A DNA stretch of 64,000 nt, taken from positions 2,170,001 through 2,234,000 of the forward strand of contig NC_017098.1 of NCBI RefSeq assembly GCF_000242595.2, given 5' to 3'. The position numbers were made by a program, and so were the translations under genes. Source of the DNA: Spirochaeta africana DSM 8902. GTDB taxonomy: Bacteria > Spirochaetota > Spirochaetia > DSM-27196 > DSM-8902. The notes beneath the pieces were generated by a model. The model was given only the letters and a program-made list of their open reading frames with translations, made no database searches and was not told the origin of the DNA. Below, one piece after another: positions 12,995 to 17,879 of this stretch (positions within the stretch are counted from its first letter, which is position 1; each line of letters begins with the position of its first letter).

Positions 12995-13882
12995 TTGACG
13001 ATGCCGGATGGCCCTGTCAATGTTAGCGATATGCAGCGGTGTCTGGCTCTGACAGTTCTCATCCTTCTTATCGGCATACCGGCGAGCCCGCTGAATGAGC
13101 TGCCGGTACTGCAGTCCCTGCAGGAAACCGATCCGCTTTTCCGCCAGATCCGCAGTGATATAGAGCAATCATACCGCGTTGGTACACCGAGTCCGCCGCT
13201 GCTGCTGTTTCGCTACTACCCGGCCGAGCATGAGAATATTTTCTCTATCGCGTCGCGCTTGCTGCTGCCATACAGTACCCTGGCAACCCTGAACGGCATC
13301 ACCTCGGCCACGGCCAGCCTCTCCGGGACCAGCCTGCTGATCCCAAACCAGCCAGGAATCTTTTCTGCTGACCCGCAGCGCGACGCGCGAGAGGATCCGA
13401 CCGAACTTGCTGCGCTTGATCGCCCGTGGTTCTATCCCGGACAAGATTTTACCCCTGCAGAGCGCCGGCGTTTTTTTGAGCAGCGCTTCAGCTTTCCGGT
13501 GGCATCGCCGCGCGTCACCTCCGGCTACGGGATGCGTAGCAGCCCGATCACCGGCAGACCACTCATGCACAATGGGGTTGATTTTGGCGGCAGGCCGAAC
13601 AGCGAGGTACTGGCAGCTGCCGACGGAGAAATAATCGAGGTTGCCTGGACCCCGGTACTTGGCTTTTACGTGAAAATACAGCATGATGAAAATCTGTCCA
13701 GTGTATACGGACATTTGTCTCAGATTGAGGTAAGTTATGGACAGCAGGTACGCCGATCAGAACGGATCGGCAGGATGGGGACGACCGGTCTTACCACCGG
13801 GCCGCATGTACATTTCGAAATCCATCACCACGGTGTGCCCGTGGACCCGTTCAGGTATCTGCCCGGAATTAATTCGCCATGA
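12995..13882 (+). CDS. Secreted M23 metallopeptidase with LysM-like N-terminal region
   Basis: 295 aa. A hydrophobic leader (LALTVLILLIGIPASP) is followed by a LysM-like stretch (ENIFSIASRLLLPYSTLATL then NG...LLIPNQPGIF). The LytM/M23 domain has complete zinc and catalytic motifs: HNGVDFGG, YGHLSQIEV and GPHVHFEIHHHG. It should cut peptidoglycan crosslinks in the periplasm. A TTG at 12995 lies 6 nt after AAGGAAG; the in-frame ATG at 13001 is an alternative start. The stop overlaps the next gene by 4 nt (ATGA). Confidence 0.9.
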   Translation: MTMPDGPVNVSDMQRCLALTVLILLIGIPASPLNELPVLQSLQETDPLFRQIRSDIEQSYRVGTPSPPLLLFRYYPAEHENIFSIASRLLLPYSTLATLNGITSATASLSGTSLLIPNQPGIFSADPQRDAREDPTELAALDRPWFYPGQDFTPAERRRFFEQRFSFPVASPRVTSGYGMRSSPITGRPLMHNGVDFGGRPNSEVLAAADGEIIEVAWTPVLGFYVKIQHDENLSSVYGHLSQIEVSYGQQVRRSERIGRMGTTGLTTGPHVHFEIHHHGVPVDPFRYLPGINSP

Positions 13883-14952
13883 AAACGCATAATAATACGG
13901 GGTTGCCAGGCAAGTTTCTTATCTCACTCCTGCTGTTGATCTGCAGTGCGATGCCGCTGCTCGGATTGAACACATTTGATGGTGAGGTTGCCGGGGTATA
14001 CCACCTGCCGGATGATGTCTTTCCGGCTCGTGAACTGCAGATGCGGGTTGGCAAACTGCTACTGATAGACGGGCTGCCGCATTCATCACCCCTGGCCGAG
14101 GGTATCGAGATTACTATTGAACCTCCCGCAGTCAATCATGGCGGCGGTAGTGCCTTCGCACTGTATATCTTTCAGGAGGTCGAAAGTCGACGCGGATTCC
14201 CCGCACCGGACGAGATCGAAACCGGCCAGATCGGGAGCTTTCAGGGGCAACGGATTATCTTTGAACTGCTGCCGTCGCGTTCGTCGTTTTCGATTCGCAT
14301 CCCGGCTCGCAGCGGCCATGGTATTCGGGGAGGGATTGATTCCCGGGTAACCCCGGTTGTCCGCCCGGAGGACGGGCCGCTCGCCCTGGCTATCCTCCCG
14401 GTGATGAAGGGACTGCCGTCCGAGATCCTGAACGCTCCCTTCACCCTGACAACCCGCTCCCTGCTGACCAATGTCGGCGGACTGGAGATTTCGGCGGTAT
14501 CGCACGATGGCCGGGAGCTTGACAATCAGGATATCGAGGAACTGGGGCTTACCATTGAACTCGATCGCTACGGGACGATTCAGCTGAATCAGGAAACCTA
14601 CATCCGTCCCGGTATCTATCAGATCCTTTTGAACAGCAATGGTGTGTTGTTTGATTCCACCCAGGTCGGGGTCGAACAGGGCCGGATTACCCGCCCGGTT
14701 ATCACCCTTCCCCGCCCGGAAAGTCGGGTCGATTTTCTGGTTCCCGGATTTATCAGTGTAACACTGGATGGCGAGATCCTGAATGAGCGTTCCATCACCC
14801 TGTCGCCAGGTGAGTACGAGGTCCTGTTCGAGTTTGAATCCTACAGCAAACGCCACACCCTTTCGGTGCAGGCAGGACGCGAGTACGCTGTCGGGGTTGG
14901 TCTGGATATCAATATCGACAGCCGCGAGGCAGATGCCTTGTCGGATCAGTAA
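13879..14952 (+). CDS. Secreted hypothetical protein, beta-rich
   Basis: 357 aa with a signal sequence (FLISLLLLICSAMPLLG) and a beta-rich body without recognised catalytic motif. The C-terminal part (FISVTLDGEILNERSITLSP, GEYEVLFEFESYSKRHTL) resembles a PEGA-type surface/carbohydrate-associated fold, weakly. It is translationally coupled to the M23 peptidase gene, so a role in the same envelope process is likely. Function is unknown. The -35 of the downstream sRNA promoter lies inside its last codons. Confidence 0.75.
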   Translation: MKTHNNTGLPGKFLISLLLLICSAMPLLGLNTFDGEVAGVYHLPDDVFPARELQMRVGKLLLIDGLPHSSPLAEGIEITIEPPAVNHGGGSAFALYIFQEVESRRGFPAPDEIETGQIGSFQGQRIIFELLPSRSSFSIRIPARSGHGIRGGIDSRVTPVVRPEDGPLALAILPVMKGLPSEILNAPFTLTTRSLLTNVGGLEISAVSHDGRELDNQDIEELGLTIELDRYGTIQLNQETYIRPGIYQILLNSNGVLFDSTQVGVEQGRITRPVITLPRPESRVDFLVPGFISVTLDGEILNERSITLSPGEYEVLFEFESYSKRHTLSVQAGREYAVGVGLDINIDSREADALSDQ

Positions 14953-14966
14953 TTTTTTACTACTAT
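14938..14966 (+). promoter_or_regulatory. Promoter of candidate sRNA
   Basis: TTGTCG (14938-14943), a 17-bp spacer and TACTAT (14961-14966). It overlaps the end of the secreted-protein gene and points to a transcript with no good ORF that ends at 15089. Confidence 0.55.
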
Positions 14967-14972
14967 GTAATA

Positions 14973-15089
14973 AAGGGTTGTCGGGAATGTCCGATAATCT
15001 TTGTGTCGGCTGTGCAGTTCCCCTCCCAGTTTGCTGTACAGTCGTCACCCAATGGGTAGGGCCGGTTCGCAAGAGCCGGTCTTTTTTTT
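14973..15089 (+). ncRNA. Candidate structured small RNA, about 117 nt
   Basis: It lies between its own promoter and an intrinsic terminator, in the 251-bp gap before the PBP gene. Four stem-loops can be drawn by eye. First, TTGTCGG/CCGATAA (14978-14984 with 14991-14997). Second, a 10-bp stem 15008-15017/15034-15043 (CTGTGCAG with CTGTACAG plus two more pairs) exposing the 16-nt loop TTCCCCTCCCAGTTTG. Third, ACCC-AAT-GGGT (15047-15057). Fourth, the terminator hairpin. The exposed UUCCCCUCCC is complementary to purine-rich Shine-Dalgarno sequences, as in UCCC-motif regulatory RNAs. It has no 4.5S, 6S, tmRNA or RNase P motif. An ORF from 14987 would read through the terminator, so coding is unlikely. 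Confidence 0.55.
15061..15089 (+). terminator. Intrinsic terminator of the candidate sRNA
   Basis: CCGGTTC-GCAA-GAGCCGG forms a 7-bp stem with a GCAA tetraloop, followed by CT and a run of eight T (15082-15089). It also insulates the PBP promoter from upstream read-through. Confidence 0.85.
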
Positions 15090-15168
15090 CCTCAATCTCC
15101 CTGGCATTCCTTCTCACCCACCGCGACAGCGGCGGCGTCCACTACACCACCCGTACCCCGGACATTCC

Positions 15169-15197
15169 TTGACAAAGCACTACGGGAAAAGTAATCT
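15169..15197 (+). promoter_or_regulatory. Strong promoter of the class A PBP (leaderless arrangement)
   Basis: Consensus TTGACA (15169-15174), a 17-bp spacer, TAATCT (15192-15197), then 6 nt to the ATG at 15204. No Shine-Dalgarno lies between them. Confidence 0.8.
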
Positions 15198-15203
15198 GCT
15201 TCT

Positions 15204-17879
15204 ATGAAATTCACGAGACCGAAGATGGCGATTATCGGCCTGTTGACCGCTTTCGCCGGAACGGTAGCACTTGCTGTCGGAATCAGTCTGGGGCTGGCAA
15301 TGGCCACCATGAATAACATTTCCGACTTTGATTCGATTACAGATCATACAACCGCTTTGCCGACACAGGTATACGATATCCAGGGACGCCTGATTACCCA
15401 GTTTTTCTCTGATGAGAAACGCGAGATTGTGCCGCTGGACGAGATGCCCAAGCACCTGATCTATGCGCTGGTCACCCGTGAGGATCAGGACTTTTTTCAG
15501 CACAACGGATTCAGCGTCCGCGGCACCTTTCGCGCTGCGGTCAACGTGGCACTCGGCCGCTATTTCTCTGGTGGTTCAACCATAACCCAGCAGCTGGCAG
15601 GCCACCTGTTTGCAGATCGGACCGATATCAGCCTGCTGCGCAAGGTTCGCGAGCTGTGGTGGGCATTTCAGATCGAACGACACTGGACGAAAAACGAAAT
15701 TCTTGAGGAATACCTTAACCGGATGTACTTCGGCGCCAACACCTACGGTGTCGAAGCTGCCAGTCAGTTCTACTTCGGCAAGAGTGTCCGCGAGATATCG
15801 GTGGCCGAATCAGCTATCCTGGTCATCCAGCTGGCCAACCCGTCGCTGTACAACCCCTTCCGACGCCCGAACGCGGCCCGTCAGATGCAGCGTACTATAC
15901 TGAACCAGATGGTCAATCTGGAGTATGTGTCGGCAGAGGAGGCCGATGAGGCCTTCACCCTGTACTGGAACAACTTTGATTTCACACGCTCCACAACCGC
16001 AACCGCCTTTTTTGATCGTGAAGACCAGGCGCCTTACTTCAGCGAGCATGTACGCAATCAGCTGCAGAACGAGATCCTCCTGGGCAGTGCCGATATCTAC
16101 CGCGATGGCTACAGCGTCTACACCACCCTGGATCTGGATGCACAGGAATCAGCCCAGGCCCATCTGACCCGGGGGGTCAATGCTGCCAACCGGATCTTCT
16201 CGCAAAATATGCAGCGCCGACGGGAGTATGCCGACGAGAATTTTGTGCCGATCATCGACATGCTCAGCCTGGCATTCAACATTCCTGATATCCGGGTTGC
16301 CGATGCCCGGCAGCGCCAGCAGGCAATGGATTACTTTCTGAACGAGATGACCCCCCTCATCGATATGCTCGGCCTGCAGTTCGGAGAGAACGAGCAGCAC
16401 CCGGTACGACTGTCAGCACGTGCGGCACACACCCGGATTGACCAGCAGGCCAGCCGCAGCACCGTTGAGGGTGCATTGATCGCAATCGAACACGAAACCG
16501 GACACATCAAGGCAATGGTGGGCGGTAGTCAGTTTGAGGGCCGTAACCAGCTGAACCGGGCGACCCAGGGACGCCTGCAGCCGGGGTCGGCATTTAAGCC
16601 GCTGTATTATGCAGCCGCCATAGAAGACGAGATCATGACGGCGGCCACCCGTCTCTACGACTCCCCGGTGGTGTTCTGGAACGAGGACGGCACCCCGTAT
16701 ACCCCGATGAACTATCGCGGTTCATGGGAAGGGCCGGTACTGTTCCGACGCTCGCTATACCGATCCATGAACGTACCCTCCATCAAGATTCTGAACGAGG
16801 TCGGCTTTACCAGCGCCCTGAACACCTCGGCACGACTGCTGGGAGTCCCGGAAACAAGCATGGCTGCACGCGGATTTGTCCGACGCTATCCGGTCGGGCT
16901 GGGTATCGTCTCGGTATCCCCGCAGGAGATGGCCCAGGCTTTCGGGGCGTTTGCCAATCGTGGACGTAAAGTCGACGCGATTGCGGTCCGCTATATCGAG
17001 GATCGCCACGGACGGGTGATCGCCGAGCCTGAGAGCCAGCTGCGGCAGGAACAGCAGCGTCGCAGTCGCCAGGAAGCACAGCTGATCAGTCCGCAAACCG
17101 CCTATATCATGACCGACATCCTGCGTTCTACGGTTGACCAGTTTGACGGCACCCTGCGCTATGCACGCAACCTCGCAGGTGGGTTCGGGGATATGCAGAT
17201 GGCGGGGAAAACCGGCACTACCCAGAACTGGGCCGATGCCTGGACAGTGGGCTACTCGCCCTACATCTCCACCGCTGTATGGGTAGGGTTTGACCGCCCC
17301 GGAAACTCGCTGGGAATCAACCAGACCGGGGCCGTAACCGCCGGCCCGATCTGGTCACGCTTTATGCACGACTACCATCGTGATCTCGAGCCTCGTGAGT
17401 TCGAACGGCCGACCCAGGGTATTACCGAGGTCGAGGTCAGTGCCCGCTCGGGACTGCTGGTGCCGGAAAATTTTCAGGGTCGGACCCTCACCGAGGTCTT
17501 TATCTCCGGCACCGAGCCACGGGAATTCGATACCCTGGATCAGCAGGAGCGCGAGCAGAATGAGCGCCTGCTGAACCGGCTGTCTTCGTCTATCGAGACC
17601 GGGGGACTGGGTGCCGGATCACCCCTGCGCGGTTTTCAGGGTATCGATCGCCCGATCAGCTTTGATGCCCGGGAGCTGGGGATTAACATCAGCCTGGATG
17701 ACGACGAGGAATTTGATGAGCCCGCAGATGTCGATGAGGTCAATCTGCTCGACGACCTTGACGACCGATTTGCACCATCGAGTCCCGCGCCGATAGAGCC
17801 AGAGACTGAATTTCCGTCTATGGATGATCCATTCCATCTGCCCGAGGATGACGAGTTTTCCAATCCGTTGCTCGATTGA
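15204..17879 (+). CDS. Class A penicillin-binding protein (PBP1A type), bifunctional glycosyltransferase/transpeptidase
   Basis: 891 aa; polymerises and crosslinks peptidoglycan. One N-terminal membrane helix (IIGLLTAFAGTVALAVGISL) is at about 9-30. The GT51 domain carries EDQDFFQHNGFS, GGSTITQQLAGHLF and the KNEILEEYLNRMYFG region. The transpeptidase has PGSAFKPLYYAA (SxxK), RSMNVPSIK (SxN) and AGKTGTTQNW (KTG). The region between the domains (about 310-430) is longer than in short PBPs. The C-terminal 150 residues are acidic and low-complexity (DDDEEFDEPADVDEV). The mRNA appears leaderless. A ParB-like gene follows 12 nt later. Confidence 0.95.
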   Translation: MKFTRPKMAIIGLLTAFAGTVALAVGISLGLAMATMNNISDFDSITDHTTALPTQVYDIQGRLITQFFSDEKREIVPLDEMPKHLIYALVTREDQDFFQHNGFSVRGTFRAAVNVALGRYFSGGSTITQQLAGHLFADRTDISLLRKVRELWWAFQIERHWTKNEILEEYLNRMYFGANTYGVEAASQFYFGKSVREISVAESAILVIQLANPSLYNPFRRPNAARQMQRTILNQMVNLEYVSAEEADEAFTLYWNNFDFTRSTTATAFFDREDQAPYFSEHVRNQLQNEILLGSADIYRDGYSVYTTLDLDAQESAQAHLTRGVNAANRIFSQNMQRRREYADENFVPIIDMLSLAFNIPDIRVADARQRQQAMDYFLNEMTPLIDMLGLQFGENEQHPVRLSARAAHTRIDQQASRSTVEGALIAIEHETGHIKAMVGGSQFEGRNQLNRATQGRLQPGSAFKPLYYAAAIEDEIMTAATRLYDSPVVFWNEDGTPYTPMNYRGSWEGPVLFRRSLYRSMNVPSIKILNEVGFTSALNTSARLLGVPETSMAARGFVRRYPVGLGIVSVSPQEMAQAFGAFANRGRKVDAIAVRYIEDRHGRVIAEPESQLRQEQQRRSRQEAQLISPQTAYIMTDILRSTVDQFDGTLRYARNLAGGFGDMQMAGKTGTTQNWADAWTVGYSPYISTAVWVGFDRPGNSLGINQTGAVTAGPIWSRFMHDYHRDLEPREFERPTQGITEVEVSARSGLLVPENFQGRTLTEVFISGTEPREFDTLDQQEREQNERLLNRLSSSIETGGLGAGSPLRGFQGIDRPISFDARELGINISLDDDEEFDEPADVDEVNLLDDLDDRFAPSSPAPIEPETEFPSMDDPFHLPEDDEFSNPLLD

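Follow-up and report, generated by a model that had tools for sequence, protein, structure and literature searches.

The window analysed here is a stretch of 64,000 nucleotides from Spirochaeta africana DSM 8902, in which an initial annotation made from the letters alone had placed a new small RNA (sRNA) with an anti-Shine-Dalgarno C-rich loop. The gap proposed to house it, 251 bp between a secreted-protein gene and a class A PBP gene, is as described, and none of the open reading frames listed there looks like a gene. The features of the locus are as follows.

12995-13882, + strand: M23 peptidase with LysM-type architecture (Pfam PF01551), upstream neighbor
13879-14952, + strand: putative secreted protein of 357 amino acids, no Pfam family, upstream neighbor
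14953-15203: intergenic gap of 251 bp between the gene for the 357-aa secreted-type protein and the class A PBP gene
14971-14974, + strand: -35 element TAAA, sigma28-type by alignment of 109 distinct homologous promoters
14976-15001, + strand: inverted repeat (hairpin 1 of the initial annotation), from the fold; overlaps the promoter and probably lies outside the main transcript
14990-14997, + strand: -10 element TCCGATAA, sigma28-type; the same box form stands upstream of flagellin genes, including those of the window genome
15004-15088, + strand: predicted sRNA of ~85 nt; 5′ end placed from the sigma28 -10 spacing and the conserved TGTCGG, 3′ end from the terminator
15007-15018 with 15033-15044, + strand: predicted target-binding hairpin with a 12-bp stem, from fold and covariation
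15019-15032, + strand: C-rich loop UCCCCUCCCAGUUU, the predicted seed for pairing with the Shine-Dalgarno sites of fliF and ftsZ
15047-15057, + strand: small third hairpin ACCCAAUGGGU, from the fold; variable and absent from some relatives
15058-15088, + strand: strong intrinsic terminator, 11-bp stem at 15058-15083 and T-run to 15088
15204-17879, + strand: class A PBP (Pfam PF00912 and PF00905, Transgly and Transpeptidase), downstream neighbor in the orientation of the sRNA

Both structural elements on which the proposal was built, the C-rich loop hairpin and the intrinsic terminator with its T-run, are present, and the terminator is the sole one detected in the scan. The 87-nt core folds well beyond chance (z=-5.9), as does a longer 118-nt stretch (z=-7.4). 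A search of the window against Rfam 15 returned tRNAs only, with no family above its gathering cut-off, and the same held for nine relatives; the best sub-threshold matches (16.7 versus 50 bits and 16 versus 41 bits) involved the terminator portion only. This agrees with the earlier statement that the RNA has no likeness to 4.5S, 6S, tmRNA, or RNase P RNA.

The promoter probably requires revision. Transcription had been assigned to TTGTCG-17-TACTAT, driving an RNA of ~117 nt with four hairpins from position 14973. These letters exist (14938-14966), and the 118-nt form folds very stably; however, the site misses a generic sigma70 scan and is unconserved in relatives, and the first of the four hairpins coincides with a conserved sigma28-type box. 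A sigma70-driven sRNA of that form is thus very improbable. Alignment of 109 distinct upstream regions instead revealed TAAA-N15-NCCGATAA at constant spacing in all lineages, with T/A/A of the -35 element found in 86/91/106 of the 109 homologous promoters, 15 nt before GNCGATAAT. The CGATA of the -10 box was imposed by the search pattern, whereas the TAAA at -35 was free of it. In Treponema, the sRNA promoter takes the form TTAAGTTT-N11-GCCGATAA. Judged by consensus match, the conserved upstream box fits a sigma28 (FliA) promoter. The experimentally mapped sigma28 promoter of T. denticola flaB2 reads TTAA at -35 and CCGATAA at -10 (PMC9481697). Among flagellin upstream regions of the same genomes, 16/40 scored at p<=0.05 against shuffles in a promoter matrix and 8 scored at least 10, values that none of the coding-sequence controls reached. 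Flagellin promoters of the same sigma28 form are present in the window genome but are degenerate. Exact TAAA-N17-CGATAA was discarded as a regulon finder in this genome, where its matches besides the sRNA were mostly chance occurrences inside genes.

The conserved box at fixed spacing would put the RNA start at 15004-15005, so the transcript probably runs from 15004 (or 15005) to ~15088, a length of ~85 nt in place of the ~117 nt first claimed. As the sigma28 box occupies 14971-14997, the hairpin formerly counted as the first would be promoter DNA. In this inverted repeat (14976-15001), the -10 region forms the 3′ arm, and the 5′ arm is not conserved across families. In several of them (L004-L007, L015, L020-L025, and relatives), the promoter spacer consists of an inverted repeat, TCGTC-N4-GACGA, that overlaps the -10 element at the equivalent of window positions 14976-15001; it could be an operator or the stem of a longer read-through transcript. 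One genome outside the class (G078; loci L105/L148) has the exact loop, the stem, and the downstream PBP gene, with a sigma28 box unrecognizable at the usual spacing.

Conservation was examined at three depths. A BLAST-type search located the sRNA in 35/46 genomes of the order. An exact scan for GTTCCCCTCCCAGTTYRCT across ~85,000 bacterial and archaeal species genomes retrieved 116 GTDB contig stretches, all from Spirochaetota save one cyanobacterial metagenome-assembled genome, whose match (L111) lacks promoter box and hairpin context and was set aside as chance. A covariance model (R1) built from 51 sequences, which recovers the predicted sRNA of the window genome at G000 2185004-2185085, detected exactly one copy apiece in 93/393 Spirochaetota genomes. 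These include a T. pallidum-sized Treponema genome (G101; 1,139,633 bp) and further genomes of Treponema type, and a small number of families from outside the class are also represented. As found here, the conserved range of the sRNA is Spirochaetota only. In two draft genomes (L013/L014/L078/L083/L086/L122), the sRNA stands at the ends of two separate contigs per genome; these ends adjoin CCGG-rich repeats, with the assembly break inside or beside the sRNA.

The stems covary. In the alignment, 94.9% of cells were paired and two-sided changes occurred in 16/23 pairs, with 100 two-sided-change cells against 28.8 in shuffles (0/500 as high), although the tested structure was drawn from the same alignments, which somewhat favors this result. 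Controls in which the structure was slid along the alignment had 33-50% of cells paired. In this same alignment, the terminator stem showed two-sided changes in 7/8 pairs. The wider set including Treponema retained 93.4% pairing with two-sided changes in 16/20 pairs. By contrast, the loop core CCCTCCC was unchanged in 45/45 diverse sequences (alignment A3, Treponema included). The initial annotation had named compensatory stem changes around a constant loop, within a gap conserved among related spirochaetes, as the test of its proposal, and that is the pattern observed. Conserved gap, covarying stems, and fixed loop together support the central proposal, that of a new sRNA whose C-rich loop is anti-Shine-Dalgarno. 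The candidate is real, and its scope exceeds what was first claimed.

The genomic setting is conserved as well, which raises the question of whether the element acts in cis. Across 119 loci, the order is M23/LysM peptidase, secreted protein, sRNA, PBP, in a single orientation, and Treponema has the same order; the neighbors were found at 87/119, 88/119, and 98/119 loci, respectively, counts that include many contigs ending early. Such strong and invariably oriented synteny with the PBP gene (98/119 loci), along with an upstream stop codon that abuts the element in many genomes and in many relatives overlaps its -35 box, would suit the 3′ end of the secreted-protein mRNA or a PBP leader or attenuator with no trans function. 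A cis-acting leader would be a 5′ UTR lacking an independent promoter and terminator, whereas this RNA has its own sigma28 box, retained where the upstream gene differs (e.g., L036, L040, L138), and a strong terminator ahead of the PBP gene, followed in the window by a TTGACA-type promoter sequence. The RNA also occurs in three genomes (G082, G390, G401) in whose searched flanks the PBP gene was undetected, and the loop matches fliF and ftsZ rather than the PBP start. We regard a purely cis-acting element as improbable and favor a separate, trans-acting sRNA.

For such an sRNA to be read from a sigma28 promoter, FliA should be encoded in the same genome. FliA scored above cut-off in 307/393 Spirochaetota genomes and in 90/93 of those with the sRNA, the three exceptions being drafts; the window genome has its own FliA (9.3e-87). 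Conversely, just 3/86 genomes without FliA carry the sRNA (p=4e-8, uncorrected for relatedness). Neither FliA nor the sRNA was found in the Borrelia-type (f12) and f17 genomes.

The targets first suggested within the window proved weak. The two that could be located had duplex energies of -11 to -13 kcal/mol, near the window-wide median of -11.7, and the motif attributed to carA was not found beside a start codon. We replaced carA, the GHMP kinase, and the 63429 gene after searching the whole window genome for the loop complement GGGAGGGG, which yielded 101 sites, of which those near start codons were inspected. Of these sites, fliF (TTCTGGGAGGGGATATG), fliE, and ftsZ stand out from a few others. 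The predicted duplexes for fliF and ftsZ reach -27.0 and -24.3 kcal/mol, respectively, and would cover the Shine-Dalgarno sequence a few nucleotides 5′ of the start codon. Flagellin mRNAs were rejected as targets, having ordinary AAGGAGGAT sites. Flagellin 5′ UTRs of relatives and of the window genome (L183-L212; L186 and L210 in the window genome) contain hairpins with ACGGA/AAGGA loops beside the Shine-Dalgarno sequence, e.g., GAACACGGATGTTC, that resemble CsrA sites and suggest a possible second control layer for flagellin. For T. denticola, CsrA sites are mentioned close to the Shine-Dalgarno sequences of flaB1 and flaB2 (PMC9481697).

Across genomes that carry the sRNA, the match is concentrated on the same two genes. 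The ribosome-binding site (RBS) of fliF contains GGGAGGGG in 22/29 such genomes, most of the rest having near-variants, and the 29 fliF start regions have a median duplex energy of -22.4 kcal/mol. For ftsZ, located 8-11 kb upstream within the same cluster in the majority of these genomes, the count is 15/27. Within the fliF loci, flgB, flgC, fliG, and fliH gave 0 matches, and fliE matched in 5/27. Among the other genes of the stretch that includes ftsZ, ten gave 0 matches, and fliE matched in 5/30, mraY in 2/11, and ftsA in 1/26. Comparing fliF plus ftsZ with the remaining genes gave p=5e-30, with related genomes counted as independent. Because the complement of the loop looks like a strong Shine-Dalgarno sequence, part of this signal could come from highly translated genes favoring GGGAGG in general. 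Unbiased genome-wide scans of the window genome and of the T. pallidum-sized genome had fliF and ftsZ as their only recognized shared sites placed at an RBS (p about 0.004 for the overlap, under rough gene counts). Two local peculiarities of the motif emerged. G051 (2,472,645 bp) has so many GGGAGGGG sites (>1,100) that the motif is uninformative there; those listed within the first 120 kb are all on the + strand, an extreme purine-rich strand bias relative to other genomes. Twelve sites in G101 (462291-462958) spaced exactly 60 bp apart form a tandem repeat.

Presence of the fliF motif tracks presence of the sRNA: 28/37 genomes with the sRNA have it versus 1/21 without (p=2e-7, uncorrected for relatedness). 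Where the sRNA is lacking, fliF sites are ordinary, with AAGGAG in Borrelia-type genomes and other forms in f33, f42, and f53; the Borrelia-type ftsZ site is TGGAGGAAG. Seven R1-negative genomes nevertheless had the fliF motif or a near form (G115, G126, G187, G390, G401, G059, G082). A second model (R2) and inspection then found an sRNA with promoter box and loop in 6/7. In G115, G126, and G187, it occupies the usual synteny. In G390, G401, and G082, model scores were weak (E 0.1-0.3) but the ATTCCCCTCCCAA hairpin is clear; the sigma28 box is clear in G082 and has the form TCAA-N15-GCCGA in the other two. G059 has the fliF motif, and R1, R2, and inspection detected no sRNA there.

Computational support thus comes from conservation, covariation, promoter type, complementarity to fliF and ftsZ, and co-occurrence. 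On these grounds, we consider it likely that the locus encodes an sRNA that depends on sigma28, acts in trans, and prevents fliF and ftsZ from being translated; its transcription, its pairing in the cell, the repressive sign of the effect, and its physiological purpose are what we infer from sequence. RNA polymerase with sigma28 (FliA) would transcribe 15004 to ~15088, producing a stem that presents the invariant UCCCCUCCCA loop, followed by the intrinsic terminator. Activation of sigma28 would be the trigger; in enteric and Bacillus models, sigma28 typically becomes active after completion of the hook-basal body (restated in PMC11607428). The loop would pair over ~8-13 bp with GGGAGGGG at the RBS of both mRNAs and occlude ribosome binding on fliF, whose product forms the earliest flagellar structure, the MS ring, and on ftsZ, whose product forms the division ring. 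New flagellar bases would be stopped and division held back while filaments are built.

Complementarity is silent on the sign of the effect, and invariance of the loop extends beyond the common 8-bp core. A genuine sigma28 sRNA might accordingly activate fliF and ftsZ, stabilize their mRNAs, or serve mainly other mRNAs or a protein partner. We hold this to be unlikely, given that the predicted pairing sits on the Shine-Dalgarno sequence near the start codon, where known sRNAs usually repress. Returning to repression, its broadest form would be a phylum-wide RNA checkpoint in which sigma28, activated once a flagellar base is finished, drives an sRNA that shuts off fliF and ftsZ through one Shine-Dalgarno motif common to both, so fixing the number of flagella and coupling division to their assembly. 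For this fuller scheme, our confidence is evenly balanced.

To our knowledge, the sX13-type group of C-rich-loop sRNAs is not controlled by sigma28. The candidate resembles members such as Xanthomonas sX13, reported to pair a C-rich hairpin loop with G-rich mRNA sites (PMC3771888). With the class of sigma28-dependent base-pairing sRNAs it shares a sigma28-type promoter (by consensus), a genome-encoded FliA, and conserved mRNA complementarity. In E. coli, this class includes UhpU, MotR, FliX, and FlgO (PMC10578931), likewise transcribed under sigma28 control and acting post-transcriptionally on flagellar output. The E. coli set is UTR-derived, has been studied with Hfq, and has other targets, such as lrhA and the S10 operon (PMC10578931), whereas the spirochaete sRNA, from a different phylum, forms an independent unit served by a promoter box of its own, and its predicted targets are fliF and ftsZ, a distinction drawn by description and by the absence of an Rfam match. 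B. burgdorferi, whose relatives lack the sRNA, is reported to have no Hfq (PMC11607428). Campylobacter jejuni CJnc170 (FlmR) is also FliA-dependent and, according to its abstract, provides feedback in the flagellar hierarchy, its overexpression lowering flagellar length and motility (PMC11187230). Compared by description, it differs in phylum and has no ftsZ link in that abstract. A T. pallidum transcriptome paper reports 10 intergenic transcripts. No earlier description of the present sRNA was found in the literature searched, outside of which unpublished or subscription work may exist, and the sRNA appears to be previously undescribed.

Each spirochaete species keeps a typical number of periplasmic flagella close to the poles of the cell; how that number is matched to division is poorly understood. 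The sRNA would be a broadly conserved regulatory RNA of spirochaetes, including Treponema, and would explain why two core genes, fliF and ftsZ, have unusual Shine-Dalgarno sites. With one RNA and two predicted targets, a direct molecular test of the link between flagella and division becomes possible, as the sRNA may couple flagellum building to cell division.
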